Positions 1,308-51,955 of a DNA stretch of 64,000 nt are shown in pieces. The DNA comes from Galerina marginata (taxonomy: Eukaryota > Basidiomycota > Agaricomycetes > Agaricales > Galerinaceae). Both the position numbers and the translations under genes were made by a program. The stretch is from the NCBI GenBank assembly GCA_023014335.1, contig JAECYW010000012.1, forward strand, positions 744,001 to 808,000. Direction: 5' to 3'. Position 1 is the first letter of the stretch. Every line of letters starts with the position of its first letter. The notes under the pieces are model-generated. The model did no database searches, had not been told where the DNA came from, and saw only the letters and a list, made by a program, of their open reading frames with translations.

Positions 1308-3590
1308 ACAAACGAGAATGCGATTGGCCTGTGTAGGCACAGGATCGAATTTAAGAGGAGTTGGTGAGACGGGTTCCTGCTTGACGACGACGGGTGCGGC
1401 CACGGGTGTAAGAGCAGGAGCAGGGGTAGATGGCGTTGACGATTCCGCTAAGGGACGTGAGGGAGATGGCGACGAGGAAGGTGTAGGGATGCCCGTTGAG
1501 CGTACAGCAGGTCGTCCGGCGGCGTTAGCAGCCTTCAATGCAACCGCATCCGAGTTCTGCTTCTTCGCGTCCTTCAATATGCTCTGGTCGACGGTGAACT
1601 GGATAGCCTGCGCCGCCGACCTCGTGCGGAGATAATACATGCCGGTCTTCAGCCCCTTCTTTCACCTGTAGAAGTGCATGCTGGTCAGTTGGCCCATCGT
1701 CGGCGACTGCAGGTGCACGTTCAAGCTCTGGCTTTGGCAGATGAAGGCACCACGGTCCGCGGCGAGGTCGAGGACCTTCTTCTGGCTGATTTCCCAGACG
1801 GTCTTGTAAATGGCCTTGACGTCGTCGGGGATGGTAGGGATGTTCTGGACGGAGCCGTTGTGTGCGATGATCATATTCTTCATGTTGTCATCCCATAGTC
1901 CGAGGTCGACGAGCTCGCGGAGGAGCCATGGGCAGACAACTTGGAATTCGCCGGCAAGGACACGACGTGTGTAGATGTTGCTGTTGAGAGGATGTCAATA
2001 CAGCAACTTTGGCAAATAAGAGGGAAAAACGTACCTCGTATATGGCTCAAAGCATTCATTGTTGCCCAAGATCTGACTGGTAGAAGCCGTAGGCATAGGC
2101 GCGACGAGCAGTGAGTTCCTCAGGCCAGTCCTGGCAATCTTCTCCTTTAACGAGGCCCAGTCCCAAAGTCCCGTAGGCGTAACGCCCCACATGTCATACT
2201 GGAGTTGACCTAGTTGAGCAGGACTGCCCATCCAAGTCTCATACGGCCCATCACGCTCAGCAAGCTCGGAACTCGCCTCAAGAGCACCATGGTAGATGGT
2301 CTCGAAGATCTGGATGTTCAGAGCCTTCGCTTCCAGGGAATCGAACGGCATATGCAGAGACATGAAGGCATCGGCCAGGCCTTGCACGCCGACGCCGATG
2401 GGACGATGGCGCATGTTCGACCGACGCGCCTCAGGGATGGGGTAATAGTTGACGTCGATGATCTTGTTGAGGTTGTAGGTGACAGACTTGGTGACGTCGT
2501 GCAGCTTCTGGAAGTCGTATTTGCCGTTGACAATAAACGTGGGGAGGGCGAGCGAGGCGAGATTGCAGACGGCCGTCTCGTCGGGGGAGGAGTATTCGAT
2601 GATCTCGGTGCACAAGTTGGAAGACTTGATGGTGCCCAAGTTCTTCTGGTTGGATTTGTCTAGGAGAGTACGTTAGACGAAGCAGGGAATTAAAGGAAGC
2701 GAGACTTACTGTTAGCATGGTCCTTGTAAACCATGAACGGCCCTCCAGTCTCGATCTGAGCCTCGAGAATGGCGTACCACAGTTTTTGGGCAGGGATAGA
2801 TTTACGCGCACGACCTTCCTTTTCGTATCGCTTGTATAGAGCTTCGAACTCTGCTCCGAAAACGTCGTGCATGCCGGGAGCCTCGTTCGGGCAGAACAAA
2901 GACCATTCACCGTTCTCTTCCACTTGCTTCATGCTACGAATAAAAGATCAGGCATTGCTCATAAGAAAAGTCGTAATCAATAACTCACAAAAGATCAGGG
3001 ATCCAAAGAGCATAGAAAAGATCACGAGCGCGGGCTTCTTCCTTACCGTGGTTCTTGCGGAGGTCGAGGAACTCGAACACATCAGCATGCCATGGTTCGA
3101 GGTAGATTGCGAAAGCTCCGGGTCGCTTGTTACCACCTTGGTCGACATAACGGGCGGTGGCATCGTATGCACGCAGCATGGGCACGATACCATTCGAGTA
3201 ACCGTTGGTGCCGGCAATGTATGACCTGGTACAGATGGTAAGGAAAGTGAAACAACCACGATCAAAGGCGGCTTACCCAGTGGCGCGGATGTTATGGATG
3301 TTGATACCAATTCCACCTGATGTCTTGCTAATCATAGCACAGTTCTTGAGCGTTTCGTAGATACCTTCAATTGAGTCATCTTTCATGCATATGAGGAAGC
3401 ATGAGCTGAGTTGGGGATGAGGTGTGCCAGCGTTGAAGAGTGTAGGAGACGCGTGCGTGAAGTAACGTTCAGACATGAGGTTATAAGTTTCGAGGACACT
3501 GTCGATGTCGCGACCATGGATGCCGACAGCAACTCGCATGATCATGTGCTGAGGTCGCTCAGCAACACGACCGTTGATACGTAGGCACTT
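1308..3590 (-). pseudogene. Ribonucleotide reductase large subunit, 3' part (broken)
   Basis: The minus strand encodes the class I ribonucleotide reductase large chain, which reduces ribonucleoside diphosphates for DNA synthesis. Visible exons are about 3277-3590, 2989-3225, 2710-2933, 2035-2659 and 1308-1980, separated by introns of 49-54 bp. Recognisable blocks in order are [24 protein letters not shown] (first active-site Cys), [14 protein letters not shown], the NLCTEI active-site block near 2600 and GMYYLRTR near 1635. Three defects are seen. The first 200 or so residues (cone and early barrel) are absent because the frame runs into the KDZ element at about 3590. TGA at 1662-1664 sits where the family has Trp in HFYGW. 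The C-terminal tail lacks the paired cysteines and runs in frame into a GH31 remnant. An intact copy must exist elsewhere if this is essential in the organism. Confidence 0.93.
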
Positions 3591-5661
3591 CAGTGGCCCC
3601 CAAAGACCTGCCTCTTAGGCTGATTAATTCCTGATAGGAAATACAGCCTAAAGGCAGGCCAAAAATGATTTATAAAAAATGTTTTATCCAAAATGATTTT
3701 CTTAAATCGCAAAAACATTTTGAAAAACATTTCTGATGAAATGTTTTTGCAACTTTAAAAATAGATATCCCCAAAACATTTTTAGATTCCAAAATGTTTT
3801 ACAGAAAAACATTTGTCACATGCTAAAAATAGAAAGTTAAAAAATGTTTTACAGAAAAATGTTTGTGACATGCCAAATATAGAAAATTAAAAAATGTTTT
3901 CCATAGTAAAAAAAATTAATATTCTTTAGCAGTGCCAGGGGTCCTAAAATCAAAAAAAAAGTTTCTTTTTCCCAGTACTGGCAGCACTATCCCATACATA
4001 AACAAAGGCTTACTACAGCTTAATATAATAAAATAATAGTTGAAAATATAGGTCTATGATAAATCTATACTAATAATAATTCTTGAAAATCTAGATAGAT
4101 AAATGGACTACTCAATATTGCCAAGAGTATTGCATGTCATTTGCAAGTAATCCATAGGATACAAAGAAATACAGTAAATTCACTTTAATAGTGCTCAAGT
4201 CACCATGAGTTATCTCACTTATTTCTTGCCCATTTAGGAGGTTTTTAGGCTCGTTTAGACAGGTAAACCTACAGAAATTGCAGGTACAGGTACAGGTATA
4301 CACTAAGATACCTAGAGATTAAGATACCCAGAGATTGAGAATACAAGTTACTGTACTATGTCAATCTTATGTTCACTTTATGTTATGCATTAAGCACATA
4401 GTTGTCACAATCCAATTCTAAGTCCCTCGCTTTTGTGGTTCCAATTCTGAAACATCTGTCATTCCGGCCAGAATCCGGACGGACACTCTCCCTTCTACTT
4501 CTCGGAATCATTTGTCCCTCTCCACACAATCCTCATGTTAACTTATCCTTATGTTGGTAAGGATCAGGCCCCGAGGCTTCTTTCTGCAGTATATCTTACT
4601 GAGGTCTTCCCGAGTTTCACAGTTGCGGAGTTGGGAACAACTCTGCCCTTATATTTAAAGACTTGTAATTACACCTTAGGACTTCAGTCTGATTATTAGT
4701 CTATCCACCCACACAACCTTGACATCTTATTGCTCTCATCTATCTAAGTTGTTCACTTCCAAAATACGCCTTAGGGCAAGGTGCTGACCTTCCAGTCTCC
4801 TAACCATAAATTGGGGCATGTCATTAGGCTAGGCACAGTTCATAACTGAGGCCAAAGCCCTGTTCGTCTAGTTCCGCATTCCGCATTCCGTTGGAACCTC
4901 AGATTCTCAGAACCTCGGACTCAGTCTTAACAATAGTTCACTTTGCAACATGATCATAATGCTACAAATAGGCCTAATCAGGACCCTAAGGGTCCACCTT
5001 TGCCACTCCAACCCTTACCCATAATCTAGGTGGGTTTTCAAAGCTGGGTATTTCTCTAAGCCTTATTATGTACACCATCATTAAGCAAATGCATGGGTAA
5101 CCCTTGGGTATCCTGGCACCTACCTGTACCCATACCCACAAGGACCCATACCTGCAACCTGCACAGGTTTACCTGTCAAAATGAGCCCAAAAACATTGAA
5201 AACAGGTGAGAAATAAATGAAATATGGGCAATTTTGACAAATTTCACAAAATTGAACTATCTCATTCAATTCTGGCCCAAAAAAAAACATTCTTGGACTC
5301 GTTTTGAAGATCATGGGTATGCAAATTGCTACCTATACCTGTATCCATTGGTACCCTTACCCACAACCCATGCGGGTACACTGTACCCGTGTATTTTCCT
5401 AACCATCATCAGATGTTGCAACATCTAACTTCTCCAAACTTTAATATGTGTCTGCAGATCACACAACTTCCAGACATGAAAACAAATGCCATCTTTATAT
5501 ACTAGTACAAATTTTCATTGAAACCCAGTATAAAAGCTATATATTCGACATCACCCAAATCACCGCAAGTCCTCCACAAGTGACATATAAAACACAATAA
5601 GGTCATAATAACCACATTCAAGTCACTGCCACTCTGGGAATCCAAAGAATCCACTCCAACA
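3586..5661 (+). repeat. Left terminal inverted repeat of KDZ element 1
   Basis: Every position x in this block pairs with 28532 minus x in the right copy without any length change, and the stretches compared base by base are identical. Identity stops abruptly at 5661: two transitions follow, then divergence. It contains many short AAAATGTTTT/AAAACATTTT motifs (3660-3905) and a nested patch of GGGTA/TACCC words (5090-5410). Open frames inside it (for example 4112-4303 and 5120-5314) recur in the other copy and look non-coding. Confidence 0.95.
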
Positions 5662-6288
5662 CCACCTACTGTAGTATTTCATTCCATTCATACAAGGGGT
5701 GGATGTGTGGCCCCACTGTATGAATATTTTATTTTGTACACCTTCCAAATGAGGGTGGACCCTGTGGTTTTTGGCCAATTTTGGACCCTAAATTCCCTTG
5801 TTAAGGCTAAAAAATGTTTATTGTACCACAAAACCTTTTGATCTATATGAAAATGTTTTATTAAAACATTTTACAACTTGGCCAAAACATTTTCAGCTCA
5901 TTCATAAACATTTAATGATCAATCCAAAACAATTTAACATTGTCAAGCATCATTAATCCCAGTTTAAAATGTTTTTTTTACAGTTGAAAAATATTTTTCC
6001 AGTAAACAAAAACATTTTACATTAGTCAAAACATTTTCAAGCTGTCAAAAGACATTTTCAAGCTGTCCAAAAACATTTTCAAGCTGTCAAAAGACATTTT
6101 CAAGCTGTCCAAAAACATTTTCAAGCTGTCAAAAGACATTTTCAAGCTGTCCAAAAACATTTTCAAGCTGTCAAAAAACATTTTCAAGCTGTCAAAAAAA
6201 CATTTAGACTCTACTATCACAACTACTTATTTATTCATTCAAAAACAACTTAACACCAGTTATATAACTTGACAACTATTGAAACAAA
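5662..6288. repeat. Subterminal AAAACATTTT repeats and 21-bp tandem array
   Basis: Between the left inverted repeat and the transposase gene, AAAACATTTT-type words recur from 5810 on. At about 6006-6200 they become a tandem array of roughly nine 21-bp units built on ACATTTTCAAGCTGTC. The array produces an artefactual repetitive open frame on the minus strand. Similar words with GAGCTGCTG occur inside the right end (22016-22440). By analogy with other DNA transposons these may be transposase-binding subterminal repeats (inference). Confidence 0.8.
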
Positions 6289-9200
6289 CTACAGTACCAT
6301 TTCATCATCAGAATAATCAATTTCCACATCCAATCCCTGTGTTTCTAAATCGTCCATCATCTCAGACTCTCCCATAAACCTTTCTTCATCAGAATCCACA
6401 GACATATTCTCACTTCCTTCCACATGGGTTTCCCTTTCAATAACATTCTCTGTATTTTCAAATTTTCTTGCTTCAGCCAATTCTTCCAGAGTTGGCCCCC
6501 AACTGCCCTCCAAAATTCCAGAAATCTGTCTCACAACAGGCTCCCAATTTAAACACAATCGAAGAAGATATTTTTGGCGTATATTCAACTGATAAACCAA
6601 TTCTGGTGATTGTTCAGACCAATGCAAAGCAGCTTTTGTAATAGCCCATTCTTCCTGCATCCACTGAAACATTGATAATTTCTCAGCTTCAAGTCGTCTT
6701 TCTTCTTCCATGCAACGATCAAGCTGCAATAACCATTTTATTCCCACCCGAACATCATCATCTCCAAGCCACAATGGAATGCTAGTATTATCATCATTAT
6801 CATCAGTCAGCCCAATATCCTGCCAGATATTATCATCAACATCAAGTCTGAATAGCCCTTCAAGTTCAATTGGCAAAGGTGCAAGTGTACCCCGAGGTGC
6901 TTTCTTTGTTTCAATCATTTTGACAAGCTCAGTGCACAACTTGTTGTAACTTCTAGCCAGTGATTGAATACCTGGCTCCTTCCTGCGAATCTGCTGGTCT
7001 GTGTGCTTTTGCAACTTTGCTTGATTGACAGTATTTCGATATGCCCTTTCCAATCCTTCAATTTCAAATTTCCGTTGTCGAAGTCGGTCACGAATCCTTT
7101 GCTTTAAAGCCAAGGCATTCATCCGAATTTTCAAAAACTCATTTCCTATAAGTTTGCTCAGATTCATCCTGCCATCAACAGATAATTTAGCTCTTTTATT
7201 ACTGATTGTTTTCTTTGTCTTCTTGATTTTATTTTGGAGGTCCTCAATATAAGATTGGACAGTAGAAGCATCCAGACCATCTTCATATTCACCACTGTCA
7301 AGCATATTTTCATATTCCTCCAATTCCTTTGCATTATTTTCCATGTTTTTGGCCAATGCCAGAATATCCTCAATCTCTTTGTTGGCCAAATGCTTGGATT
7401 GTTTGGTCAAAGGTTTTGTCTGTTCAATAATCTGAGCCTTCCATTCATTTCGTAGTACATCTTCAGTGTATCCAAGATCTAAAATTGGTTGAAGTCCTTC
7501 CACAGCAGCATTTTTCTTTTCCATAGTAGTCTTCCATTTACGCTGCAACCAATTTCCCAGACCCAACAATGACTTTTCATCAATGTGTTTAACCTGAGTA
7601 TCAATTGTATAGATACGATTGTAATATCCTGACACTCGGCAAGATGGGATCAAAGCTTTAATTGCACTCCAAAATCTTTCGCAGCCTTCACCATCTGTTA
7701 GCCCAAATCCCACACATTTACGGGGGTGATATATAACCTGACATGGCCATTGATGACCATATGCGTGAAACACAGAGATTCCGAAGACAATGCGATCCAA
7801 AAAATTGCCTAGAAACCCAAATTTTTCACAGCTGCGGTGCAACTGACAACCAATATCATACAAAAGTCCAATCCGCATTGACTCTGGTATATGCTCATAT
7901 AGTTTCATAATCAAGGTCAAAGCATAGTGCTGCTTTTCACCAGCTGAAGTCATATTCACAAGCCACAAAACCCGATCATGTCGACAAAGCAAGGCCATAA
8001 GTCCAGTATCCGCAAAAAACAAAGTGCTAGCTTTCATTCGCTTCTCATCTGCTGCTAGAAATGAATCATGACAGCCATCAAGCACAGAAGTAGGCACTCG
8101 CATTCCAGGCTCATAGTCAGGTTGAGCACTGGCACCAGTTTGGGTCGATTTACCCTTAGACTTAGACTTTTTGGGTGGACGTATCTCTTCTACCTTTGTC
8201 TCCATTGCCTCTACCTCATCTTTAGGGATAAAAATAGTTTCAGGATGAGTGCGCGGACCCTGCCATTGCTTGCTGTCAGTCTTGCGGCGCTTTTGAGTAA
8301 AGCATGCATCAATGCAAACAATTGCATCAACCCTAGTATAGGAGTTATAACATGGACTACTAGCAAAATGAATCAGAAAAACTCACAATTCCTCAGGCTT
8401 ACACCAATTTTCACCCCCAAAACAAAGAGGACATCTCTCACGAAGATATTCACTAGGGCGGTTAGGTTGAAAGCCCTTGTTTTCATTATTCTCTTCTTCT
8501 TCCTCATCTATTACAGAAATCAATAGATGAAAAATAATCAAGTAATTTAATAACTGTACCTCCAGGTTCCGGTTCAGTTGTCTTTTCTCTTAAACTTTGC
8601 GGCTCGTAATGGACATCTACAAGCCACCATAAGAATCAAATCAATAGCAAATAATGCCTGAGAATATTTACCTTCAGTATCATCCTCTTCATCATCCATA
8701 GATAATACAGCTCCTCTCATTTTGTTCAAATAATCCCTCATCAACAGATTTTTGGTGTCTGTCAGAGTAGCATACCAAAGCAAAGCATTTCCAAATCTCC
8801 CACGCAAACTGTCCTACATCAATATTAGCTTCCAACATAAACAACATAAACATTAGAGGGCACATACTCGGGTTGTTAACTTGAAATTTTTAGAACTAAG
8901 AAAACCTTCCAAAGTTTCACACCATGCAGTAGTATTAGGAGCAGCATTGGCAAACAAACTCCTAGCAAAATCCAAGACATTGAGATCAACTGCCAAGGTA
9001 GGTTCTAAAGGTGCACAAGGAAATAGGCCCTGATTCAGAAGCTGTAAAGCAGGATCCGTGCAGGTACACAAAGAAATCTTCTCAATTTCTACTTGTGATG
9101 AGTATGACTAGTCAGTAGAACAATACAGGACTTACTTTCAAAGAAAATACAAGAAACCTCAATTAAATGACCATCTGCACAGCCTAAGCATCCTTTTGGC

Positions 9201-9873: not shown

Positions 9874-12620
9874 TTATGCCGCGGCCGGAAGTTGATGAGG
9901 AATAGACGGGGCCCTTCCGAAGTAGTCGAAAAATGTCTGGCAGTAAAAAGGACATGCAATCCTCTCCACCGCCGTAACACTCGCTTCCGAAGCCTCCATC
10001 ATAGTCTGGGTTTTCTTGACGAAGGCCGTGATCTTCTTCAGCTCCTGTGGTGCCTCAGGCCACGAAGAAAGAAGAATGCGAAAGGCGTCAACCACCTCAG
10101 CACGATCGGCACAATTCGCAGCACCAAGCCCTTGATCACGTCGCGGCAGGTCCAGCAGCAGAGGGGTTTTAAACATGAAGCAACGATAAACCATGCGATC
10201 GCGCTGAGCTACCTCCCACTCCAATGACATTTCTGCCCGAGGAACAATGCACCGGTCCAGCGCCAGCAACTCCATGCGGAAATTATGTTCCTCGAGGTCC
10301 CAGATAATTTGCCGCATGACGGTGGTGGAAAGGCTGAAAGTGCCAGCTGCCATATCTGATTGGGAAACAACCTCGTGCCCATTCCAGTAGATCGGCGTCG
10401 GCCCATTGATTTGTACCAGCGCCTGCAGGGCGAACATCTGCTTGAGGGTATCCCCATCATCGACACGGCGACGCTTGCTCGACCTTCCAGTCGCGGAATT
10501 GGACGTGGCGTTGGCTGGCGAAGACGAAGCCCCACGCGACGAAGTTCCCCGCGACGACGAAGCCCCACGCAATGGAGCTCCACCTCTTCCTCGAGGCGCG
10601 CCGCGGCCGCGAGAAGACTGGCCTCCACCACGGCCTCCTGTCGAATTAGATGCTCCACCCATGGACGACTCAGGAGCCTCTGCAGGAGCCACCGGGTTAT
10701 TCATCGCAATGCCCATTGGGCTGGCCACCATCTTCCACAAAAAATCCCTCCAGTTCTGCGGGGTAGGGAACTTGTTGTCCCCGGGAACTCGATTCGTCGT
10801 GCGACTGAACCATGCCACACGTATCGCGAGCCAGGCAACAGCATATTGCAAAGTTCGGCCAACTTTCCAGTCGGGGTTACCAGGCGTGTCATTCATCAAG
10901 ACAGAGGAGGGGAAAATTGGGTACCCGTGGAGCAGCGCAAGATCGCGATGGTTAATAATACGCTTCCAGTCAACAATGATGCCTTGACGGGCGAACCTCC
11001 AAAAAGCATTGGCTTTCGGCTGCAAAACCGATGTTGAAACACGGAACTTCGTCATGTCGATGGCAAATTGCTGCTCGAAGGATATATAACGACCGGGATT
11101 GGGAGAAGGCACAGTCATGCTGGCCGACGAAGCAGAGGGGGCGGAAGAGGCAGGATGCATGGCCGCCATTGTCGATGACGAGGCGCGGGCGGAAGTGTCG
11201 GGCGGAGCTCCGCCGAGCGACGACGTGGAGGGTGCAGGAGCAGGGTTCGATGTCAAAGCAACACCGGCGAGGGCATTCTGCTGGGTCGACCTAGCAGGAA
11301 AGGCCGCGAAAGGGTCGAGGAGTCTAACATGGTCTAGAATTACGAGTCAGACAAAAACGAGATACCCCATATAAACTTGAACACCTACCGTGCTCGTAAT
11401 GAGAAACATGTTGCTCCGAGGTGATGTTGAAGGCGCTGTGACCCAACCTAATATTCTGCATGCCTGTGCGTAGACATGCCCGATTCCGCGTCGCACAGGC
11501 AACACCAACGTATGCCGCGGGTTTGTTGGGCATGACTTCTCGTACCAGGCCACTGGGAATCGACGGGTCACATTCGTGGCCGATATTCATGTCGTGAGGG
11601 ATCGACGAAGGTGTCCTAACAAGCCAGGTCGGAACACCCATGGCGTGCAGACGAATGGCCACATTCGTGTCGACGGTAAGCGCGCCCATGATGGTTTTGT
11701 CAACAGGACGGGGAGGAGCATCGACATCGAGGTTCATTTCGCGTTCCTTCCAGACCGTGAGGTATGCGTAACACGCCAGAGATTCCAAGACGTGGCGTTG
11801 AAAGGTAGTGACCGTAAGGAGAGTATCCTCGTATGTTTGCGGGGCAAATGTGAGGGTGAGGGATGAATAATGCATACCCGTCTTGCTGAACTTGATTTCG
11901 TCGTACTGGTTTTCCGCCCATCGACCCACGTCAATGAGGGCTTGGATTCTCGACGAAAGCGTTTTGCGAAGAGCGATGAACTCGTCTGCCAATGCAGGAA
12001 CAATCCTCCCCAAACCAGAACTCTCGGCCCCCATTTCCAAAACAAAATCCGATCTTTGAAGCTCCCTCCACGCCAGACCAAATTCGTGTCGAAAAATCTC
12101 GGAGGCGGGAGGGCGAACTGGGATGAACGCCAAGAAATACGTTCCGTTGTACCAAAACTGAGGCGCCAAGCCGGGATCAGCCAAGAAGAAATGTCCATCC
12201 ATCCGAGCAAGGACCTCCTCTGAATCCTTCATTATATCCGGGAGCCAATCCATGTTCGGGGACGTGACGACAATTCCATTCGGACGTAGGTAGCCTCGTT
12301 CGTCTTCTTCGCCGCTGACGCGATAATCCAGCCCGGGAACAGCGTATTGAAGGCCGCGTTTGTATTCGTGGATCACCAGAGCGTCGGTTCCGACAAACTG
12401 AGCTGTAAGAGAACGTAAGTCATCGAATATTCCATGTACAAGAAGCAAAGAAGACGAGACATACGAGAATTCGGGCGGGTATAAGCCTCGATTTTCCAGA
12501 TACCGCTTGTCGAATAGCGCTCTCGATTATAACAGTCAAAGTAAGTTACTGTAGGAAGTCAGTAAAGAAATAGAAACATGAAAACCAAAGGTACGCACAT
12601 CCAGGAGGCTGAATGGGCAT
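9874..12620 (-). CDS. RGG-box protein of KDZ element 1, unknown function
   Basis: Four exons (12599-12620, 12465-12548, 11389-12402, 9874-11333) join into 859 codons starting at the ATG of MPIQPPG. Residues about 10-370 form a conserved-looking globular part with TYFDCYNRERYSTSGIW, EAYTRP, DALVIHE, FFLADPGLAPQFWYNGTYFL and TGMHYSSLTLTFAPQ. I associate this with uncharacterised proteins that recur in Agaricomycete genomes, but I cannot name a domain. After a Ser/Ala/Pro linker, residues about 590-650 contain an RGG box (GGRGGGQSS, RGRGAPRGRGG) and a basic SSKRRR motif, so RNA or single-strand binding is plausible. It is transcribed in the same direction as the transposase. The upstream 12.7-13.1 kb holds nine copies of a hairpin motif in the sense orientation; they may lie in its leader. 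A possible upstream exon at 13127-13220 does not join in frame. Confidence 0.75.
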
Positions 12621-12726
12621 GGTATCGAACAAACTTCTGCAAAAAAAAGAAAACATGCATCAGAACATCAACAACAACACAGCGCAAGCGAATTGAGGCC
12701 GAAACTCGCGAAAGGCCAATGGAGAC

Positions 12727-13080
12727 GGCGAGATAGTCTGCCAGTCCTTGAGCAAAAGGAAACGCGAAGGGTCGAGGACGGCGAGGTAGTCTGCCAGTCC
12801 TCGAAGCGCGAGGGAAGAAAATTGCGAAGGGTCGATGTATTCTGACCCCCGCAAAGACGGCGAGGTAGTCTGCCCGTCCTTGAGCCAATGGAAATGCGAA
12901 GGGTCGTTGTATTCAGACCCCAGCAGAGGACGGCGAGATAGTCTGCCAGTCCTTGAGCGAAAGGAAACGCGAAGGGTCGAGGACGGCGAGGTAGTCTGCC
13001 AGTCCTCGAAGCGCGAGGGAAGATAATTGCGAAGGGTCGATGTATTCAGACCCCAGCAGAGGACGGCGAGGTAGTCTGCC
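12727..13080 (-). repeat. Hairpin-motif cluster A (9 copies)
   Basis: Nine 16-bp cores begin at 12727, 12780, 12831, 12859, 12903, 12932, 12985, 13036 and 13065. Read on the minus strand each has a 10-nt loop, AGACTACCTC or TGAATACATC with small changes, enclosed by complementary arms. Three copies have GGGTC/GACCC arms. The others have GGC/GCC continued past a one-base bulge by GAC/GTC and up to five more pairs, for example TCGAGGAC with GTCCTCGA at 12780 and 12985. The two kinds of unit alternate, so part of this cluster has also grown by local duplication. Uncertain whether it lies in an intron or leader of the RGG gene. Confidence 0.85.
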
Positions 13081-13589
13081 AGTCCTCGAACAAAACAAAA
13101 GAGATAGGAAGGGATCGGGGGCTTACCGGCGCTACCTGTCGATTTTGGGCGGTGGTGGACGAGATGAAGAAAGATCACAGTAGGAAATCGATCAAAGTCC
13201 GAAATCGTCCTTTGTGACAAACGTTACAAAATCACGTGACTAGTTACCAGCGCGAAGAGTTACGCCCCCGATAAGATTGTAAAGAGATGATTTATGTAGC
13301 CGTTCTGGACATAATAAATATAGCAATCCATAGAATCATATCTTACTCTTGCAGTATATTACTTATGTTAAAATTCTGTTGAATTCGGAACGGAAACAGA
13401 ACTGCAATTATATGATTGCATGGTGAAATTATATTCAAAGTTAAGATTATCTGAAAGAAATACAGTTCTTGGAACGTTAGATGAATGATGCTTGTCATTT
13501 GCTATACATAACCATGAAGTCAATGCTCAGTACAGAACATTGCTCAACCTCTACACCTCATTTAGCAACACATCACCTCATTTGACCAC

Positions 13590-14380
13590 CGTCTCATGAC
13601 GGCCGTGTCGTTCCTACAATCCCGCGCACCTCGTCATTGGAACAATGCAGTCTGCTGTTGGCAATAAACCGCGAGAGCTCACTAACCAAAGAAAACAATT
13701 TAGCAGCCTTCCAAGATATCAGAGAGGAGTGATGGCTGGACGTACTGGTCAACAAATTCAACGCTGATGCCAAACGCCCCGCTTGAATTGGCAAATCGAA
13801 ATGAGGTGGAGGCCGTCGTAGGTCTTTGAGTCGGTTCCGCCGGTCTCAGTCTCCCCCTTCGTCGATGATTCTGAGGAGTTGTTGGTCAATGCGCATTGCA
13901 TAAGGAATGAGGCAGACTTACTTCTCGTCTTTGGTCATGTTCGTGGTGACAGTATCGGTGTCGCTGAAGACGAATCCTATGCGGACGATCGTCAAAACGA
14001 TATCGATGCGTGAGCCAAGGCCTAAGGTACACACCTTGTCTCCTATCCCTGCCAGATAATTAGCCCTCGCCTTGGGAGCATCCGAAATCTCGGACTCTCC
14101 TTCTATCTTCTCCGCTTCAGCTAGTCGTTCGTCGAGATTGGCCTTGTCCATCTCAGCAAGGAAGGCGGTATCAAGGGACAAGACGGACGACGAGGACGTT
14201 ATACTTCGGTAGTAGGGCCCCATTTCTATTTGAGATCTCATTAGATACAACAGAACAATTATCATGGGCCTACATACAGTCAGCTTTGATGCCTTCAAGC
14301 AATTCTTTCCGGGCATTATCGTGTAGGTGCTTCAGGGCGGATTGGAGAGTACGAAAAGGTTCTCTGGAACCCTGAGATTA
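13590..14380 (-). pseudogene. Rpn7 (26S proteasome subunit) gene fragment
   Basis: The minus strand carries a decayed piece of the proteasome regulatory-particle subunit Rpn7/PSMD6. In order: ENLFVLSNP near 14365, ARKELLEGIKAD, an intron (about 14232-14275), MGPYYRSIT, LDTAFLAEMDKAN, LDERLAEAEK, EGESEISDA, KARANYLAGIGDK and LGSRIDIVLTIVRIGF. After another intron comes an EGGD-stop-DRRNRL block near 13835. Short internal segments of the family are missing (after KAN and after GDK). A TGA replaces the Trp of GDWDRRNRL, and a one-base frame change separates the NRL part from YDGLHLISICQFKRG. The PCI domain is gone. It sits inside KDZ element 1 with introns retained, so it was captured as genomic DNA rather than through mRNA. 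Confidence 0.85.
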
Positions 14381-14545
14381 GGAATAGTGCGAGATGGAGA
14401 AGGGCAGGCGAAGCGCAATTGGAAACGAGGTCGGTGTCGAGGGGTAGTCCGTGGGGTGCGCCGTGTTTTGAGGATAGGAACCCTGCTCGAAGCGACGGTG
14501 AAGTTGAGCGATGGAGCGAACGATTGAGCTCGTTTCTAAACTGTG

Positions 14546-14721
14546 AGCGATGTATTCAGCTCTGGGAGAGCAGGCGAGGTATTCAGCCTGTAGGAAGTTG
14601 GGCGCGATGCAGGCGCCCTCGAGATTGGGAAAGGGTAGCTTTGGGAGCGATGAATTCAGCTCCGATATGCTGACAACGAGCGAGGAAGTCAGCTCATTGT
14701 GAATAGGCGATGTATTCAGCC
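14546..14721 (-). repeat. Hairpin-motif cluster B (5 copies)
   Basis: Copies at 14546, 14573, 14646, 14679 and 14706 share the core seen on the plus strand as GATGTATTCA, GAGGTATTCA, GATGAATTCA or GAGGAAGTCA. Their arms differ but stay complementary: GAGC/GCTC, CAGGC/GCCTG, GGAGC/GCTCC, GAGC/GCTC and AGGC/GCCT. Orientation is the same as cluster A (sense on the minus strand). Confidence 0.85.
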
Positions 14722-14957
14722 TGGAAGGTCCGACGTTCTCGACAGGGAGGGAATGAAGATAAGCTGTTATCAGTCGCGATTGGACTTGACGGATTTCGAA
14801 GACAAGTGCCACGGTCTCGTGACTCAATTTTGGACTCTGGCCAAATTTGAACGCGATGCGCGCGTTGTTTGTCAACGGACCGCTGTTTGGCAACAGCTTT
14901 GTTTGGGTTTTATCTACTCTCCATCGTCTACCCCATCGTGCATGATGGGATTTCGAC
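14722..14957. promoter_or_regulatory. Orientation-switch spacer, candidate divergent promoter
   Basis: This roughly 235-bp spacer separates hairpin copies that all face left from copies that all face right. Genes on the left of it (RGG gene, Rpn7 remnant) read leftward and the AT-hook gene on the right reads rightward. I see no clear TATA box. The call rests only on the orientation change and the gene directions. Confidence 0.35.
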
Positions 14958-15169
14958 CTGGGCTGACTACCTCGTCCCAGCAACGCGGCAGACTACCTCG
15001 CCGTGTCCTAGCAGCTCACTGACTCCATCGTGAGCTGCCTCGTCTTCATTGTCTGCCGCTGTGGGCACGATGTGAGAACGACACGGGCTGAATACCTTGC
15101 CCAACCTACAACGGCAGACTACCTCGCCGTATTACTTCCCTGCAGCTCACTGAATACATCGTGGGCTGC
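14958..15169 (+). repeat. Hairpin-motif cluster C (6 copies)
   Basis: Plus-strand copies start at 14958, 14983, 15011, 15085, 15111 and 15142. Loops are TGACTACCTC, AGACTACCTC, TGACTCCATC, TGAATACCTT, AGACTACCTC and TGAATACATC. Arms are CTGGGC/GTCCCAG (one bulge), ACGCGGC/GCCGTGT (one G-T), GCAGCTCAC/GTGAGCTGC (perfect 9 bp), GGGC/GCCC, ACGGC/GCCGT and GCAGCTCAC/GTGGGCTGC (one T-G). The 9-bp arms here are the strongest single evidence that the structure, not only the loop, is maintained. Confidence 0.9.
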
Positions 15170-15195
15170 TTCGTGAAGTATGTGAGGTCGTCGTT

Positions 15196-15490
15196 GTCTG
15201 GTTTTTCATCCGCGCGCGCTCCGTTTCTATGCCCAGGGTTTGTCAGTCCGCTACTTTACATTCATAGTTCTGACGATTTTTTCTTAGAATCTTTGTTTCT
15301 CATGTCGATTCCTTGCGCCCATACGACTCCCACCTGCGTCTTGTCTGGTTTTTCATCCACACTTCCCACTCCGTTTCCATGTCTGGTGTTTGTCAATCCG
15401 CTTCTCTAAATCCTCAGTTCTGACGTTTATTTCTTAGATTTTGGCTCCCCATATCGATTCCTTGCTCCCAAACGACACCCACCTGCGCGA
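15196..15490. repeat. Tandem duplication of about 148 bp
   Basis: The segment starting TCTGGTTTTTCATCC at about 15197 recurs at about 15345. Shared blocks such as TTTGTCA.TCCGCT, GTTCTGACG, TTTCTTAGA and CATATCGATTCCTTG (first copy ATGTCGATTCCTTG) are in the same order. The copies differ by scattered substitutions. No coding function is evident. Confidence 0.75.
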
Positions 15491-16434
15491 AAATCCCTCG
15501 GTTTCTTGACTTCAGTGTCATCTTCGGCGTGTTCCACCTTTCCAACCGTACCCGGCGATATCTATTCGAACAGGGACATAGTATCATCTTTCGCCACATC
15601 GACGACTCCAACTACACCAGCAACCAAGTTCTTTGAAACGCCCCTCGACTTTCTGCTTTCCACGGGTTTCGCCCCCCAACTGTGCTTTTCCGAGAGCCTG
15701 CTGTCTTCTGTTTCAATGGGTAACTTCGTTATGCCATTCTGCTACCAAGAACTAACCATCGGGTCTATAATCAGTCAATATGTACTTCTGTTTCCTAAGA
15801 CTGCAGTCCCAAACTGCCTCGAGTCGAGCACTATTTGAATGCTATGACGGTGACTGTCGAATAAGTCGTGTATGTTGTCGTATTTATTTTACTAACAGCT
15901 TGAGAATGCGCGTTGATTACGGCTTCTATCTAGCATTTAACAATATCAAATATTTGAGTTGGAGTGATCTTAGTGCGCTGACAAACCAGGAAGTTGGGTA
16001 ATGCCGTTTCTGTCGTCCTCAATAGATTTTGTCTGAAACAATCCCAACAGAACACCCCATGATTGGGTCTAGAAAACGTTCGTCAGGCACGATCCAGACC
16101 TGCTCAAAGCATCCCCCAAACCTAAATGTCCTTCAGAGAAGTCGCGGTATGTTGGAATATACATTTAACGGCTTGGAAATTCGTGTTGATCGCCGCTCCT
16201 AGCATTTACCTATATTGAATTTTTGATATGGAACTAAAAATTTCGAGGCCCCACGAACCTGAAATACACGTCGACAGATTCTGTCACCGAAAACTTACCT
16301 CCGTTGGCCTAACTGGGTCTTAACTCCCAGACTATCCTGGGACCTTGCCAGGGTCTGGAAAACCCTACGGGTACTTAAGGCATCGCACTGGCGATTCTTC
16401 CTATCCTTTCCCCCCATTTTTTTGGTTTTGAACC
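15491..16434. other. No supported gene; upstream region of AT-hook gene
   Basis: Several short open frames occur but none continues across plausible introns or shows a motif. The last 60 bp before the ATG at 16435 are pyrimidine-rich (TCCTTTCCCCCCATTTTTTT), as is common just upstream of starts in this kind of fungal gene. Confidence 0.5.
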
Positions 16435-19400
16435 ATGCCGTCCAAACGCAAAGCTCCGGATGATTTCAAAAAGGCTGACAAATCCTCCAAGGTTAGTTCG
16501 TTTTGCTCGCTCAACTTCTCGTCCTCACCTACGCCTCCAGAACGATCGAAAGGACGAGAGCGCCGACGACGAACGCGAAGAGTTGGCGCGACCTTCAGCC
16601 AGAGCGAAGGTGCTCAAGGTACCTCCGCCTGCCTCCTAACAGGTTCACAACTCACGGCCATATTCACAGAAACGTCGCGGTCGTCCCCCTGGAAAGCGTG
16701 TGGCCGAAGAAAGCGCCGACGACGGCGAACGTGAAAGTTCGGAGGAGGATGGCGAACCTCCCGTAAAGGTATTGCTCCTGCTACTTCATGATTGTCGGTC
16801 CTCATAGACTCCTCCAGCGTCCTCGTGGTCGTCCTCCCAAAGGCCTTGCTGCTGCACCTCCCTCAATGTTAGTAATTTTTGGCTCTGCTTCCCTACGTGG
16901 CCAGCTGGTGGATGTGGAAACCTTTGGGCAGACTACCTCGCCTAATGAGGAGAAGTTGTGCAGACTACCTCGCACATCTTCTCTTTGCTTAACCCGGTTG
17001 GGGTTGGGCTGACAATATCGGTCATTTGTGGAGGACTTGTGCTGAATACATCGCGCATATTTGTTCCCATTATTGGCAGACTGTGTCACCGAGTTTCCAA
17101 TCCCGATGACCGCCACGTAGGCACTGAAACCTATGCTGAATTATTTTCTTAGTCCGGCTCCGAGGGTTACGCGCGCCTCTGCACGTTTGTAAGTTTGTTC
17201 AGACATGTCGCCTTGTGTATGTTTTGCTGACTGTCTTCTTCAATAGGATGGCCAATCCACCGCCTGCGTAGGTGTCTCTCTACTTATTTATGCATTCATT
17301 TTTTTGACTCTTTTTTGCAATAGAGCGCCTCTTCCGGTTAGCGTTCGACCGACTCCTCGTCGCCGGTCCCCTGGATACACCAAATTGGCCAGCGAGGATG
17401 AGGGCTACAGCCACGCCGTCACCAAGAAGTGGCAGCGTAAATACCACGCCAAGAAAGAGCTTCAGGCTAGGGAGGCCTTCGTGAAAGCTCGCAGGCTGGC
17501 AGGTGCGCTGAAGCGCAAGAAAGGCCGTAAACCCCGTCGGGCCAGCAATGAAGACGACGACGATGATGAGACCGAGACCGAGGACGAGGAAGCACCGGAT
17601 GATGGCCCTGCCCACGGTGGCCGCCGCGACGGTGGTCCTGACAAGGATCACGAAGGAGGAAATGAGGACACCAACGACACCAACCACGATGAGCCTGGTG
17701 CCAATGATAGCGATGGGAATTCTGGGGGTGGTCGGGCAGGGTACCCATCATCTCGAGATGTCGCACAGCCTCCTCGAGCACCTTCGGTGGATGTGTTCTC
17801 GGCGGGTCCTCCTGGCATGCCCACTAGAATTGCCCGCGGCCTTTTCGCTGCCTCTCCGCCTCTGGAGAGTGACTTGTCGGGGAGTGACTTCGAGGAAACG
17901 GAGCGTGCTGCAAAGGTTACGAGGGCCTTTCGAAACCGGAGGTCAATTTCAGTTGACAAAGATGGGGACGACGACGACGACAGCACTCTTCAGGCCGAAG
18001 TGGTGCAGTCGAGCGCACCGCTTACTGGAGAGGATTTGGACGCCGAAGTAGTCGCATCCAGCCCGGCACCACCGGATGACGCGGCGTACGTCGACAGAAC
18101 CACCAGGCGACAAGATCCCAAAGGCGCCCCTCCGGCTACCATCCCTGGCGACGAGGATCGTTCGACGGGTGACGTGGCCAGCGGGCAAAACGAAGAAGCT
18201 CGAGCCGGTAGGACATCAAAAGTGGCCGATGAAGAGTGTGAAGATTTCGGAGTGCGTACTGAGGCTGAAGCCAAAGATATCTCTTCGAGGAATCGGCTAA
18301 CAGTGGAGACTGTATACACGAAGGCCAAGCTCAGGCGCCTTTTCCATCGTGCGCCGAACCCTTGGAATCAACACCAAGCTGTTGAGGCGCGGGCTAGTCG
18401 GGTACCCGGGGAAGGCCGTATGTTATATGTTTTCATCGTATGACATTCTATTTACTAACAGCTTTGTTTTTAATAGGTGATGGTTTTGTCATTCGTGCTC
18501 GTGGTCTCTATGTGGAGAGCACCGATCCTCAGAAGCACACCGAAGAGGAAATCCTGGCCTTCAAAAAAGAACTGGGCAATACCATTGAAGAACTCGCCGG
18601 ACTTCCTGGGGCTTTGAAGGCTCCAGTCAGTCGGATGAACGACAATGTGGCCGAAGTCAAGACTACTGTAAGTTTTAATTTAATCCTTACAAAATTTCAC
18701 GTTTGCTCATGAGATTTTGAAGTTAACCTCCCTTGGTCGTTTCAACCCGGATATTCACCATATAAACTTTGCCCTCTACACCGGCACTGATCAAGCTGCC
18801 CGCCAGCTTTCGGGCATCGTAACTGCTTCTGACCTTGTGGTTGAGATGATCAGAGAGCCAGAAAATAAAGTCATGGTCCAAGACTTGGTCGACATGTTTG
18901 TGGGGATGTTGAGGTAATCAACTGCTCTTTGCTTTGCAGTCCTGATGCTAACTTTGACCATTTAGTAGCATCATTGGTAAAGCCAAGGTTGCTGAGACCA
19001 TCAACAAAGGGAGCTGTGGCAAGCAGCTGGCCGCGGGTGAACCTGTTTTGTATGTTCTTATCTTATCATCCTTTCACGTTCTGACCAACTCGCTTTCAGA
19101 TCTAAATCTGCTGTGGATCGGAAAGGCAAACAACGAGCGGATAGGCTTGATGTCGAGCCTAAGATTGTTCCTATCCGGAAGGAAGGTGTTGATAATGCAG
19201 TTGCCTACGACTTTCGAAATGTTTTTACCATGCGACTTCTCAATATGCTCAGTATGTTATTTGTTTGCTTCCTCTTCTGATTCTTTGTCTGATTTACCTT
19301 TAGATGGCATTATCTCTTGTGTGTCGACAGCTGCTATCCGGAACACAATGTCTTGGTCGAAATTTGGGACTCTTGCTGTTACCTACTGCCTCCGAATCGT

Positions 19401-22015: not shown

Positions 22016-22440
22016 TAAAACATTTTGGGTTTGACTGAAAATGTCTTTAAGCTGCTATAAAACATTTACACTGATCATTAAAATGTTTTTGAACTACTCT
22101 AGAACATTTGCACATGTTCTAAAAATGTTTTTTAGCTGCTGAAAAATAGTTCACCAACTATAAAATGTTTTTGAGCTGCTGAAAAAGAGTTTCCCAATTA
22201 TTAAATGTTTTTGACCTACTCTGAAACATTTACACCTGTTGTAAAATGCTTTTGAGCTGCTCAAAAACATTTCATCAATTATTAAAATGTTTTTGGGCTG
22301 CTGTAAAACATTTAAAATCATTATGAAAATGTTTTTTGAGCCCTAGAAAACATTTACACCTGATTAAAATGTTTTGTGGCTTGCCAAAAACATTGCTGAG
22401 GATTTTAAAATATTTTGGTCGACTGATTTTAATACTTTTT
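22016..22440. repeat. Subterminal AAAATGTTTT repeats, right side
   Basis: About ten AAAATGTTTTTGAGCTGCTG-like words, with AAAACATTT words between them, lie spaced 35-45 bp apart just inside the right inverted repeat, mirroring those at 5810-6200 on the left. Candidate binding sites for an element protein (inference). Confidence 0.75.
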
Positions 22441-22870
22441 GGGAATTTACTGAGGACTTAAGGTGACTCAGATGATGTTGAAGTGAGTTTATCTTGTTGC
22501 ATGTATGGCTTACAGATTGAGTCGCAGGGAAAGAAAATGTTAAACCAGATTCAGATCACTTAGGACCACAAATTTCAAAGACTAATGAAGACCATTTACT
22601 GCAGTCCAGTTAAGAGACATTGCATTATCAAAAATCTAGGGACCAATATAAATGTGCTTTAACCTGTTTCAACCATTTGATTGGGCTACAACTTAACACA
22701 AAGACAGGTGCAATAAATATCCTTTGGATGAGCCTAAAATCATGATTTTAGACAGAAAGGTGACAATGTTACAGCCATAATTGTGAGATTTTGCAGTGAG
22801 CTTGCAGTAACATGTGACGCTATTGGGGTTTTACCATCAGTTCTGGGGGAACTTGTGGTGAATTAGGTAA

Positions 22871-24946
22871 TGTTGGAGTGGATTCTTTGGATTCCCAGAG
22901 TGGCAGTGACTTGAATGTGGTTATTATGACCTTATTGTGTTTTATATGTCACTTGTGGAGGACTTGCGGTGATTTGGGTGATGTCGAATATATAGCTTTT
23001 ATACTGGGTTTCAATGAAAATTTGTACTAGTATATAAAGATGGCATTTGTTTTCATGTCTGGAAGTTGTGTGATCTGCAGACACATATTAAAGTTTGGAG
23101 AAGTTAGATGTTGCAACATCTGATGATGGTTAGGAAAATACACGGGTACAGTGTACCCGCATGGGTTGTGGGTAAGGGTACCAATGGATACAGGTATAGG
23201 TAGCAATTTGCATACCCATGATCTTCAAAACGAGTCCAAGAATGTTTTTTTTTGGGCCAGAATTGAATGAGATAGTTCAATTTTGTGAAATTTGTCAAAA
23301 TTGCCCATATTTCATTTATTTCTCACCTGTTTTCAATGTTTTTGGGCTCATTTTGACAGGTAAACCTGTGCAGGTTGCAGGTATGGGTCCTTGTGGGTAT
23401 GGGTACAGGTAGGTGCCAGGATACCCAAGGGTTACCCATGCATTTGCTTAATGATGGTGTACATAATAAGGCTTAGAGAAATACCCAGCTTTGAAAACCC
23501 ACCTAGATTATGGGTAAGGGTTGGAGTGGCAAAGGTGGACCCTTAGGGTCCTGATTAGGCCTATTTGTAGCATTATGATCATGTTGCAAAGTGAACTATT
23601 GTTAAGACTGAGTCCGAGGTTCTGAGAATCTGAGGTTCCAACGGAATGCGGAATGCGGAACTAGACGAACAGGGCTTTGGCCTCAGTTATGAACTGTGCC
23701 TAGCCTAATGACATGCCCCAATTTATGGTTAGGAGACTGGAAGGTCAGCACCTTGCCCTAAGGCGTATTTTGGAAGTGAACAACTTAGATAGATGAGAGC
23801 AATAAGATGTCAAGGTTGTGTGGGTGGATAGACTAATAATCAGACTGAAGTCCTAAGGTGTAATTACAAGTCTTTAAATATAAGGGCAGAGTTGTTCCCA
23901 ACTCCGCAACTGTGAAACTCGGGAAGACCTCAGTAAGATATACTGCAGAAAGAAGCCTCGGGGCCTGATCCTTACCAACATAAGGATAAGTTAACATGAG
24001 GATTGTGTGGAGAGGGACAAATGATTCCGAGAAGTAGAAGGGAGAGTGTCCGTCCGGATTCTGGCCGGAATGACAGATGTTTCAGAATTGGAACCACAAA
24101 AGCGAGGGACTTAGAATTGGATTGTGACAACTATGTGCTTAATGCATAACATAAAGTGAACATAAGATTGACATAGTACAGTAACTTGTATTCTCAATCT
24201 CTGGGTATCTTAATCTCTAGGTATCTTAGTGTATACCTGTACCTGTACCTGCAATTTCTGTAGGTTTACCTGTCTAAACGAGCCTAAAAACCTCCTAAAT
24301 GGGCAAGAAATAAGTGAGATAACTCATGGTGACTTGAGCACTATTAAAGTGAATTTACTGTATTTCTTTGTATCCTATGGATTACTTGCAAATGACATGC
24401 AATACTCTTGGCAATATTGAGTAGTCCATTTATCTATCTAGATTTTCAAGAATTATTATTAGTATAGATTTATCATAGACCTATATTTTCAACTATTATT
24501 TTATTATATTAAGCTGTAGTAAGCCTTTGTTTATGTATGGGATAGTGCTGCCAGTACTGGGAAAAAGAAACTTTTTTTTTGATTTTAGGACCCCTGGCAC
24601 TGCTAAAGAATATTAATTTTTTTTACTATGGAAAACATTTTTTAATTTTCTATATTTGGCATGTCACAAACATTTTTCTGTAAAACATTTTTTAACTTTC
24701 TATTTTTAGCATGTGACAAATGTTTTTCTGTAAAACATTTTGGAATCTAAAAATGTTTTGGGGATATCTATTTTTAAAGTTGCAAAAACATTTCATCAGA
24801 AATGTTTTTCAAAATGTTTTTGCGATTTAAGAAAATCATTTTGGATAAAACATTTTTTATAAATCATTTTTGGCCTGCCTTTAGGCTGTATTTCCTATCA
24901 GGAATTAATCAGCCTAAGAGGCAGGTCTTTGGGGGCCACTGAAGTG
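22871..24946 (-). repeat. Right terminal inverted repeat of KDZ element 1
   Basis: Reverse complement of 3586-5661 with a constant coordinate sum of 28532. The outer end is ...CCACTGAAGTG, after which the flank TCCCGGAAAGGGTG shows no relation to ribonucleotide reductase. The blocks I compared (around 24060, 23000 and 22900) are identical to the left copy. Confidence 0.95.
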
Positions 24947-51160: not shown

Positions 51161-51179
51161 ATTATATATCAGGATGTGC

Positions 51180-51955
51180 CCAATCCAATTCTATATTTTT
51201 TTCTGATTTTTCCCCTATTTTTCTCGATTTTTTCCTATTCCGAATGACCCTGAATAGCCCAATCCAATTCTATATTTTTTTCTGATTTTTCCCCTATTTT
51301 TCTCGATTTTTTCCTATTCTGAATGACCCTGAATAGCCCAATCCAATTCTATATTTTTTTCTGATTTTTCCCCTATTTTTCTCGATTTTTTCCTATTCCA
51401 AATGACCCTGAATAACCCAATCCAATTCTATATTTTTTTCTGATTTTTCCCCTATTTTTCTCGATTTTTCACTATTTGGAATGACCCTGAATAACCCAAT
51501 CCAATTCTATATTTTTTTCTGATTTTTCCCCTATTTTTCTCGATTTTTTCCTATTCCAAATGACCCTGAATAACCCAATCCAATTCTATATTTTTTTCTG
51601 ATTTTTCCCCTATTTTTCTCGATTTTTCCCTATTTGGAATGACCCTGAATAGCCCAATCCAATTCTATATTTTTTTCTGATTTTTCCCCTATTTTTCTCG
51701 ATTTTTTCCTATTCCAAATGACCCTGAATAACCCAATCCAATTCTATATTTTTTTCTGATTTTTCCCCTATTTTTCTCGATTTTTCCCTATTTGGAATGA
51801 CCCTGAATAACCCAATCCAATTCTATATTTTTTTCTGATTTTTCCCCTATTTTTCTCGATTTTTCCCTATTTGGAATGACCCTGAATAGCCCAATCCAAT
51901 CCTATATTTTTTTTAATTTTTTCTCTATTTTTCTTGATTTTTTCCTATTTAGGAC
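51180..51955. repeat. Minisatellite, about 10 units of 78-79 bp
   Basis: Units begin CCCAATCCAATTCTATATTT and end TGACCCTGAATA(G/A). They are almost identical apart from a short variable part (TTTCCTATTCC versus TTCCCTATTTGG) that splits them into two sub-types partly alternating along the array. T-rich on the plus strand. It starts 20 bp after the transposase stop and may form its 3' region. Confidence 0.95.

Follow-up and report, generated by a model that had tools for sequence, protein, structure and literature searches.

The stretch of DNA analysed here (64,000 nucleotides of Galerina marginata, contig JAECYW010000012.1, positions 744,001 to 808,000; hereafter the window) contains a KDZ (Kyakuja-Dileera-Zisupton) DNA transposon of about 21 kb (window positions 3586-24946), which houses four clusters of small hairpins sharing a nearly constant loop between arms that vary in compensated pairs. 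Diverged relatives of this element were all found in the same genome (69.3 Mb in 43 contigs), and the related ones, together with a distant one termed C10c, carry the same clusters. Related elements keeping the same stems, each with its own loops, suggest a private RNA recognition code. Judging from the sequences, we regard it as rather probable that the hairpins serve as operators at the RNA level and that each element has its own factor to read them, probably one which it encodes itself.

A scan for the loop (the hybrid loop exactly, or with up to two mismatches if at least four stem pairs follow) recovered 28 sites over the 64 kb, 23 of them at 12730-17052, while each of the five outlying sites (908, 9919, 27079, 33327 and 62702) had two loop mismatches or no stem. 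A covariance model including the window copies (R1) gave 23 window matches at E up to 1, and a hold-out model built from 54 hairpins of other elements (R2) gave 22, of which 20 were at E up to 0.02; all matches of both models were within 12723-17059. When a generic loop, WGAMTNYNTC, was used, 20 of its 23 matches inside 12701-17100 had at least four stem pairs, as compared with none of the 12 outside. Loop plus at least four stem pairs occurred 0.43 times on average (maximum 3) in 200 dinucleotide shuffles of the window. An earlier note on this DNA, made from the letters alone, had counted 23 hairpins in four clusters inside the KDZ element and had proposed shuffled sequences as a control; the count was reproduced, with none elsewhere in the window, and the control came out clearly in its favour. 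Rfam gave 0 matches at E up to 1 over 12500-17300.

Cluster 1 (12723-13084, minus strand) consists of nine hairpins, with 24-nucleotide (nt) cores recognized by R1 at 12723-12746, 12776-12799, 12827-12850, 12855-12878, 12899-12922, 12928-12951, 12981-13004, 13032-13055 and 13061-13084; R2 found eight of them and missed 12899-12922. Cluster 2 (minus strand) lies downstream of a conserved GATAACA box and has five hairpins (14542-14565, 14569-14592, 14642-14665, 14675-14698 and 14702-14725), all recovered by both models. Two triplets form cluster 3 (plus strand), at 14957-14980, 14983-15006 and 15013-15036 and at 15082-15105, 15109-15132 and 15144-15167; R1 found all six, as did R2, two of them at E 0.2. 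The three hairpins of cluster 4 (plus strand; 16923-16946, 16955-16978 and 17036-17059) were detected by R1 and by R2. The earlier note needs correcting on one point: cluster 1 is made mostly of two tandemly repeated types with a 73-nt period, and altogether the 23 window copies comprise 17 distinct arm sets.

The relatives differ in their distance from the window element and in their loops. C10a and C14 are 78-79% identical to it over 6.9 kb; in the part with gene A (described below) and the transposase, C23 and C10b are 69-81% and C1a and C1b 64-72% identical to it. C10c was recovered de novo through its own repeated loop and gave only weak translated matches to the window, and C5 and C6a have a few hairpins, with a further loop type. 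The window element mixes the loops AGACTACCTC and TGAATACATC; C10a and C14 have AGACTTCATC, plus AGACTGCATC, AGACTACCTC and other near variants, C23 and C10b AGAATCCTTC, C1a TGAATACATC, C10c TGACTTTGTC, and C5 and C6a AGAATGTTTC, AGGATGTTCC, TGGATGTTCC or TGGATGTTTC (WGRATGTTYC). At loop positions 2, 3, 5 and 9-10 the five aligned families hardly vary.

Loop counts over the whole genome were in excess of controls. GCWGAMTNYNTCGC was found 219 times, against 39 for the reversed control, and of the 100 places listed among these 219, 69 fall in these KDZ elements; GCAGAATNYTTCGC occurred 31 times (2 in the control), 25 of the 31 in these elements, and GCTGACTTTGTCGC 26 times (0 in the reversed control), on C10 (9), C12 (7), C39 (6), C4 (2), C1 (1) and C17 (1). 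The C39 set (1058447-1059695, minus strand) is closely followed, on its own strand, by a gene A relative (1057420-1058040); no adjoining gene A or KDZ match was found for the C12 set (3423460-3424382). Loop patterns mark further clusters at C5:2019439-2021142 and C6:1054863-1056565. R1 searched over 24 loci (171.6 kb) gave 134 matches at E up to 1; three of them, all weak (two in L003 and one in L007, E 0.18-0.38), were outside KDZ elements and the rest inside, a distribution due partly to construction, because most of those elements trained R1. The stretch of another KDZ element (L048) had no R1 match and is uninformative, because it comes from the side of gene A where no arrays are expected. 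As the earlier note had foreseen, the loop counts and R1 matches are concentrated in KDZ elements.

Arm pairing was compared, family by family, with 2000 shuffles of the 3' arms. The paired cells exceeded the shuffle maximum in the window element (121 of 156, maximum 100), C10a (60 of 78, 56), C23 (70 of 90, 67), C1a (82 of 102, 74) and C10c (95 of 108, 77); in C6a and C5, with 3 and 4 sites respectively, pairing was not above the shuffles. The main alignment (A1) holds 75 distinct 24-nt hairpins, ungapped, from the window element, C10a, C23, C1a and C10c; rows were chosen by a loop within one mismatch, arms being ignored, and the near-copies C14, C10b and C1b were left out. In A1, 85.3% of the cells paired (64.9% shuffled), the covariation score was 0.547 (0.174 shuffled, and 0.07-0.16 with partners slid by one to three columns) and 163 cells had changed on both sides with pairing kept (61.8 ± 6.8 shuffled), cells which are not independent events because some copies were recently duplicated. 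Two non-pairing C23 loop matches are omitted from A1; with these restored (77 rows), 583 of 693 cells paired versus 447.5 after shuffling, with 165 versus 64.4 double changes. The excess persists without the window copies (54 rows). Compensatory change around a near-constant loop, the core of the earlier note, therefore stood above both arm-shuffle and covariation controls, and a selected structure is well supported by these comparisons.

Within the loop, nearly every copy could pair G with C at 2-10 and A with U at 3-9; variation at 3-9 (A-U, G-C or G·U) was seen only in C5 and C6a. From these pairs we infer an inner helix, and if it forms, what remains is a five-nucleotide loop, with the A or U of position 1 bulged out. 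The ten-nucleotide loop described earlier is indeed near-constant, and its unpaired part would then probably be five nucleotides plus the bulged one.

Descent of arms and loops was compared on 20 hairpins, taken from clusters 3 and 4 of five elements, with positions assigned by hand from array order and alignment; only the first of the window's two cluster-3 triplets was used, and decayed copies and clusters 1 and 2 were left out. Loops differed by 1.24 of 10 nucleotides within an element versus 3.30 at the same position between elements (1.30 versus 3.00 when C10c, with arms that allow no matching by descent, is excluded). Arms showed the opposite, with 8.64 differences of 14 within an element versus 5.57 at the same position between elements (8.77 versus 4.37 without C10c). 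Hence arms descend with their place, while loops change together across an element. Orthologous comparisons without C10c, in which single events are counted more than once, gave 10 double changes with pairing kept (at five distinct pair positions), 17 single-sided changes with pairing kept and 70 unchanged pairs; for instance, GCAGCTCAC/GTGAGCTGC in the window element and C10a corresponds to GCACCTCAC/GTGAGGTGC in C10b. The arms, formerly held to be many and unrelated, are compensated as claimed but not arbitrary, being conserved by position between elements. Multiplication by whole tandem blocks is seen in the 73-nt period, in doubled hairpin triplets and in doubled promoter-plus-triplet units.

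The pairs also indicate a strand. Among distinct arms of the five families, stem positions 1-4 contained 25 G·T and 2 A·C, whereas crossed arms would give 37.7 and 22.0 (p 6e-6 if equal shares are assumed and 1e-3 with the background share), the count skipping position 4 where a bulged T mimics a pair. G·U is tolerated and A·C almost never, so that the selected strand is probably the transcript; this asymmetry argues against selection at the DNA level, because a structure of both DNA strands would not produce it. Over seven elements, 112 of 113 sites, including all 23 of the window, point outward from the centre along predicted transcription, the sole inward site being one of the two non-pairing C23 matches. 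The centre of the window element is a stretch at 14735-14950 which, with hairpins pointing outward on both sides, would act as a divergent promoter.

Gene A (9874-12620, minus strand; exon ends approximate) begins at the ATG at 12620 (MPIQPPG...) and codes for an RG/RGG-rich segment, which was found in four of the six elements searched (window, C10a, C14 and C10b). Its start peptide is common to annotated hypothetical proteins of G. marginata, its homologues, and the proteins of the element match G. marginata CBS 339.88; among the candidates scored (5739, and 7999 in a second search), gene A relatives were G. marginata proteins only. Cluster 1 lies in a predicted 490-nt intron of the 5' untranslated region (UTR) of gene A (12637-13126, minus strand; GTAAGC...TTTTGCAG), which ends 16 nt before the ATG and whose donor, acceptor and upstream block are conserved in C10a, C14, C23 and C10b. 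All 41 cluster-1 sites fall inside such predicted 5'UTR introns, in the window element (9), C10a (5), C14 (6), C23 (4), C10b (5), C10c (4) and C1a, the last having three tandem predicted introns with 3, 3 and 2 sites. A frame of 187 amino acids, open across cluster 1 (12660-13223, minus strand) with GLADYLAVL-like repeat peptides, is probably a by-product of the intron's tandem repeats.

On the other side, gene B (16437-18443, plus strand; end approximate) begins at the ATG at 16437 (MPSKRKAPDDFKK...) and has two AT-hooks, KRRGRPPGKR and PRGRPPKG; two AT-hooks are present in five elements. Of the 8000 candidates scored in a protein search with its exon, none was a relative. Cluster 4 lies in a predicted 285-nt intron of gene B (16868-17152, plus strand), where a long-range stem, CTACGTGGC/GCCACGTAG, closes the array. 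The three other gene B introns measured have 49, 49 and 58 nt. In five elements (two near-copy pairs and the window element) cluster 4 is in a 285-291-nt predicted gene B intron, with splice sites and the 9-bp long-range stem conserved and double changes in 9 of 89 consensus pairs; in C10c it is in a predicted intron of the gene at the corresponding place. The C23 copy (L033/L034) has about 5.2 kb inserted in gene B between the parts matching window 16723 and 16792, and its cluster 4 is beyond the insert. Clusters 2 and 3 sit in predicted leaders, after promoter-like stretches on either side of the centre, and cluster 3 is probably in a first exon, since donor sites follow it in C10a and C14. 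Fold z scores against shuffles were -4.59 for the cluster-1 intron, -4.98 for cluster 3 and -4.77 for the cluster-4 intron. The earlier note did not remark on where the hairpins lie (predicted introns and leaders), on their common orientation with predicted transcription or on the loops being specific to each element.

The comparisons thus support, at the level of sequence, paired structures with conserved stems, their strand, their predicted intron and leader places and the element-specific loops, and the question is what reads them. A reading at the DNA level is suggested by the VANC motifs of Arabidopsis VANDAL transposons, which are read as double-stranded DNA and have spread by tandem repeats (PMC5735166). 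As that paper describes them, they are short, dense and of one orientation, lie in introns and upstream non-coding regions of the transposon's own genes, and diverge together within a family; dense family-specific motifs in predicted introns and upstream regions are found here too. By analogy, a protein of the KDZ element would bind the core as duplex DNA and the arms would act solely in DNA form, perhaps extruded as a cruciform, and the AT-hooks of gene B could suit such a role. However, duplex reading has no need of conserved, compensated arms, and a DNA cruciform would not predict that G·T is tolerated and A·C rejected on one strand only. The KDZ stems are position-specific, compensated and apparently selected on the transcript strand, whereas VANC motifs are not known to have paired arms, and the main text of the VANC paper contains neither the word hairpin nor palindrom (0 occurrences; PMC5735166); arms and asymmetry both point away from a duplex motif without structure. 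Gene A has no Pfam match, VANC homology not having been tested directly. Overall, we consider a DNA-level motif unlikely.

Slightly less likely still is an aid to splicing, in which the arrays would compact or mask long introns for a host spliceosome that prefers short ones, for removal or controlled retention, the loops being a motif for a host protein. Clusters 1 and 4 are in predicted introns of 162-565 nt, as against 49-58 nt for the three other gene B introns measured, and in the predicted consensus structure of the long gene B intron, which has the conserved long-range stem, the end at the 5' splice site is paired to the side of the branch point. But clusters 2 and 3 are in predicted leaders, not in introns, compaction requires stems rather than a fixed loop, and a host factor leaves the loop difference between elements of one genome unexplained. 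That the loops pair with a separate guide or antisense RNA made by the element appears improbable: the loops are short, exposed and element-specific, yet in the predicted transcripts of the window element no complement was found for four of the six loop cores tested (AGACTACC, TGAATACA, GACTACC and ATACATC), the other two (GAATACA and CTACCTC) have two complements each, away from the arrays, and the near-fixed loop positions point to a structural frame. In a replicating mini-hairpin, which the earlier note had named beside a selected structure, or in a template-switch product, a small hairpin would insert and copy its flank into an inverted arm; this could account for many arms round one loop in the window alone, but it is very hard to credit and was rejected in both forms, because dispersal by hairpin copying would give the opposite of the observed pattern of positional arms and concerted loops, and copies multiply as whole tandem blocks with the core concentrated rather than scattered.

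Operator sites for one reader would fit hairpins whose stems are free to vary while the small loop is fixed, which are numerous in each RNA and whose loops change in concert. We infer that the arrays are transcribed and that a protein reads the loops, and the reader and effect named below are proposed on the same footing. Each KDZ element would transcribe two divergent gene sets from its centre, with leaders and unusually long introns carrying the arrays. Each hairpin has a stem that is specific to its position and usually closed by C-G; above it would come a bulged A or U, then the two pairs GA/TC or GG/CC, and at the tip a loop of five nucleotides, MUNYN. If the stem merely presents the loop, its sequence could drift in compensated pairs; the loop would be the key, kept near-uniform within an element by a single trans-acting factor reading all copies. 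A shift in the specificity of this factor would be followed by the element's loops, giving each family its own key. The reader should be element-specific, because sister elements in one nucleus keep different loops. Gene A would be the first candidate, with its RG/RGG-rich segment and its own predicted 5'UTR intron packed with sites, and gene B the second, with AT-hooks and sites in its own predicted intron; the location of arrays in introns of these very genes suggests autoregulation or recruitment to nascent transcripts. Binding there would probably control splicing or output of the element's genes, or hold the protein at the transcribed element. More tentatively, each KDZ family may have a private RNA address, in which an element protein reads loops on the nascent RNA of its own family and the two diverge in step, so that sisters would coexist without cross-talk.

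Several observations weigh against operator sites of this kind. The window element has two loop types rather than one, and the introns are predictions based on conserved splice signals. The number of pairs showing at least one double change is 7 versus 5.9 after shuffling (81 of 500 shuffles reach 7), 17 orthologous pair comparisons break pairing, single events again being counted in several comparisons, and some copies are related by recent duplication. The inner helix is put forward with reserve, because its pairs barely vary in A1 and RNAfold favours a neighbouring register for AGACTACCTC. The fold of cluster 2 was marginal (z -1.94, 4 of 200 shuffles), a roughly cut C10c cluster-4 stretch had no fold excess (z 0.08), and decayed hairpins exist (C10a 4.1 and 4.3, C23 3.2). 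As for the readers, the search gave no RG/RGG segment for C23 and C1a and no AT-hook for C10c; Pfam and a PDB sequence search gave no known RNA-binding domain in gene A, and the structure model of a gene A homologue was poor (mean predicted local distance difference test score 38).

The terminal inverted repeats of the window element, left at 3586-5668 (plus) and right at 22864-24946 (minus), have 2083 nt each and were reported as 100% complementary, yet a test of exact equality was false, so that they are not letter-perfect. The 8-bp target site duplication stated for Zisupton was not found, as the flanks of the repeat ends differ; the true ends may be elsewhere. An open reading frame at 6289-8382 (minus strand), part of the transposase gene, matches the KDZ transposase PF18758 (E 5.5e-64, 216.3 bits versus a cut-off of 26.6). 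The same contig has two near-identical 6-kb matches to the element, one of which differs at 3 of about 19,900 positions compared; the third copy is at C4:1019566. Subterminal tandem repeats with AAAATGTTTT / AAAACATTTT cores (6028-6205 and 22038-22394) are possibly transposase binding sites. The element has also captured a host gene fragment at 13412-14387, part of the proteasome subunit RPN7 (PF10602, E 4.9e-9), which shares 88-92% identity with loci on C12 and C21; at those loci the pieces are interrupted by additional sequence that may be intronic. A TET/JBP gene was considered as the element's own anti-silencing gene and rejected: above-cut-off matches (three alone, five more with in-frame neighbours) are all elsewhere, none within about 60 kb of the hairpin-bearing elements. 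TET/JBP genes do lie about 4-5 kb from other KDZ transposase matches (C3:1340143, C10:919628 and C39:268759), not in hairpin-bearing elements. Outside the element, a 79-nt tandem repeat occupies 51179-51949 (9.8 copies, 94% matches).

RNA-phage coat-protein operators, usually described as one per gene, have in the MS2 type a bulged nucleotide, two base pairs and a small loop, with a stem largely free in sequence below the bulge, and serve autoregulation. In shape the KDZ hairpin recalls the operators of MS2 and its kin (PMC4231745), and bulge, two pairs and small loop would be present here if the inner pairs form; loop sequence and length differ, and no coat protein was found in the KDZ element. 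The bacterial Csr/Rsm RNAs (CsrB, RsmZ) carry several hairpins per RNA with a common loop motif and C-G-closed stems, in leaders or sponge RNAs read by one protein (PMC4005645); the KDZ arrays share the multiple hairpins, common loop and C-G closure, while Csr/Rsm is bacterial, reads A(N)GGAX and involves no transposon. The loops of five KDZ families are WGAMTNYNTC instead of A(N)GGA, those of C5 and C6a (WGRATGTTYC) include GGA in some copies in another context, and the proteins scanned had no CsrA/RsmE-type Pfam match. We know of no family-specific loop codes within one genome in Csr/Rsm systems. Fungal KDZ transposons have the same transposase superfamily, terminal inverted repeats and extra genes (PMC12730594); the words hairpin and stem-loop are absent from the main text of that paper. 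In agreement with the earlier impression that no element of this form has been described, no report of KDZ-element hairpins was found in the open PubMed Central papers searched, the broader search being judged on titles and abstract starts. No described family fits the arrays, though their working logic has analogues and may, by comparison, lie between plant VANC arrays and bacterial Csr/Rsm hairpins.

Transposons are usually thought to recognize themselves by their DNA ends, and here a family appears to mark its own RNAs with element-specific loops. Even without such a reader protein, the arrays clearly show a mobile element that keeps long non-coding stretches for the sake of a conserved RNA structure. 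If the loops are indeed read by proteins of the elements, the genome offers six natural loop variants with presumed readers, in which the avoidance of cross-regulation among coexisting transposons could be tested, and which could supply new orthogonal RNA tags. The KDZ arrays would then be an RNA counterpart of plant VANC, with introns serving as landing arrays for self-recognition, autoregulation or anti-silencing.

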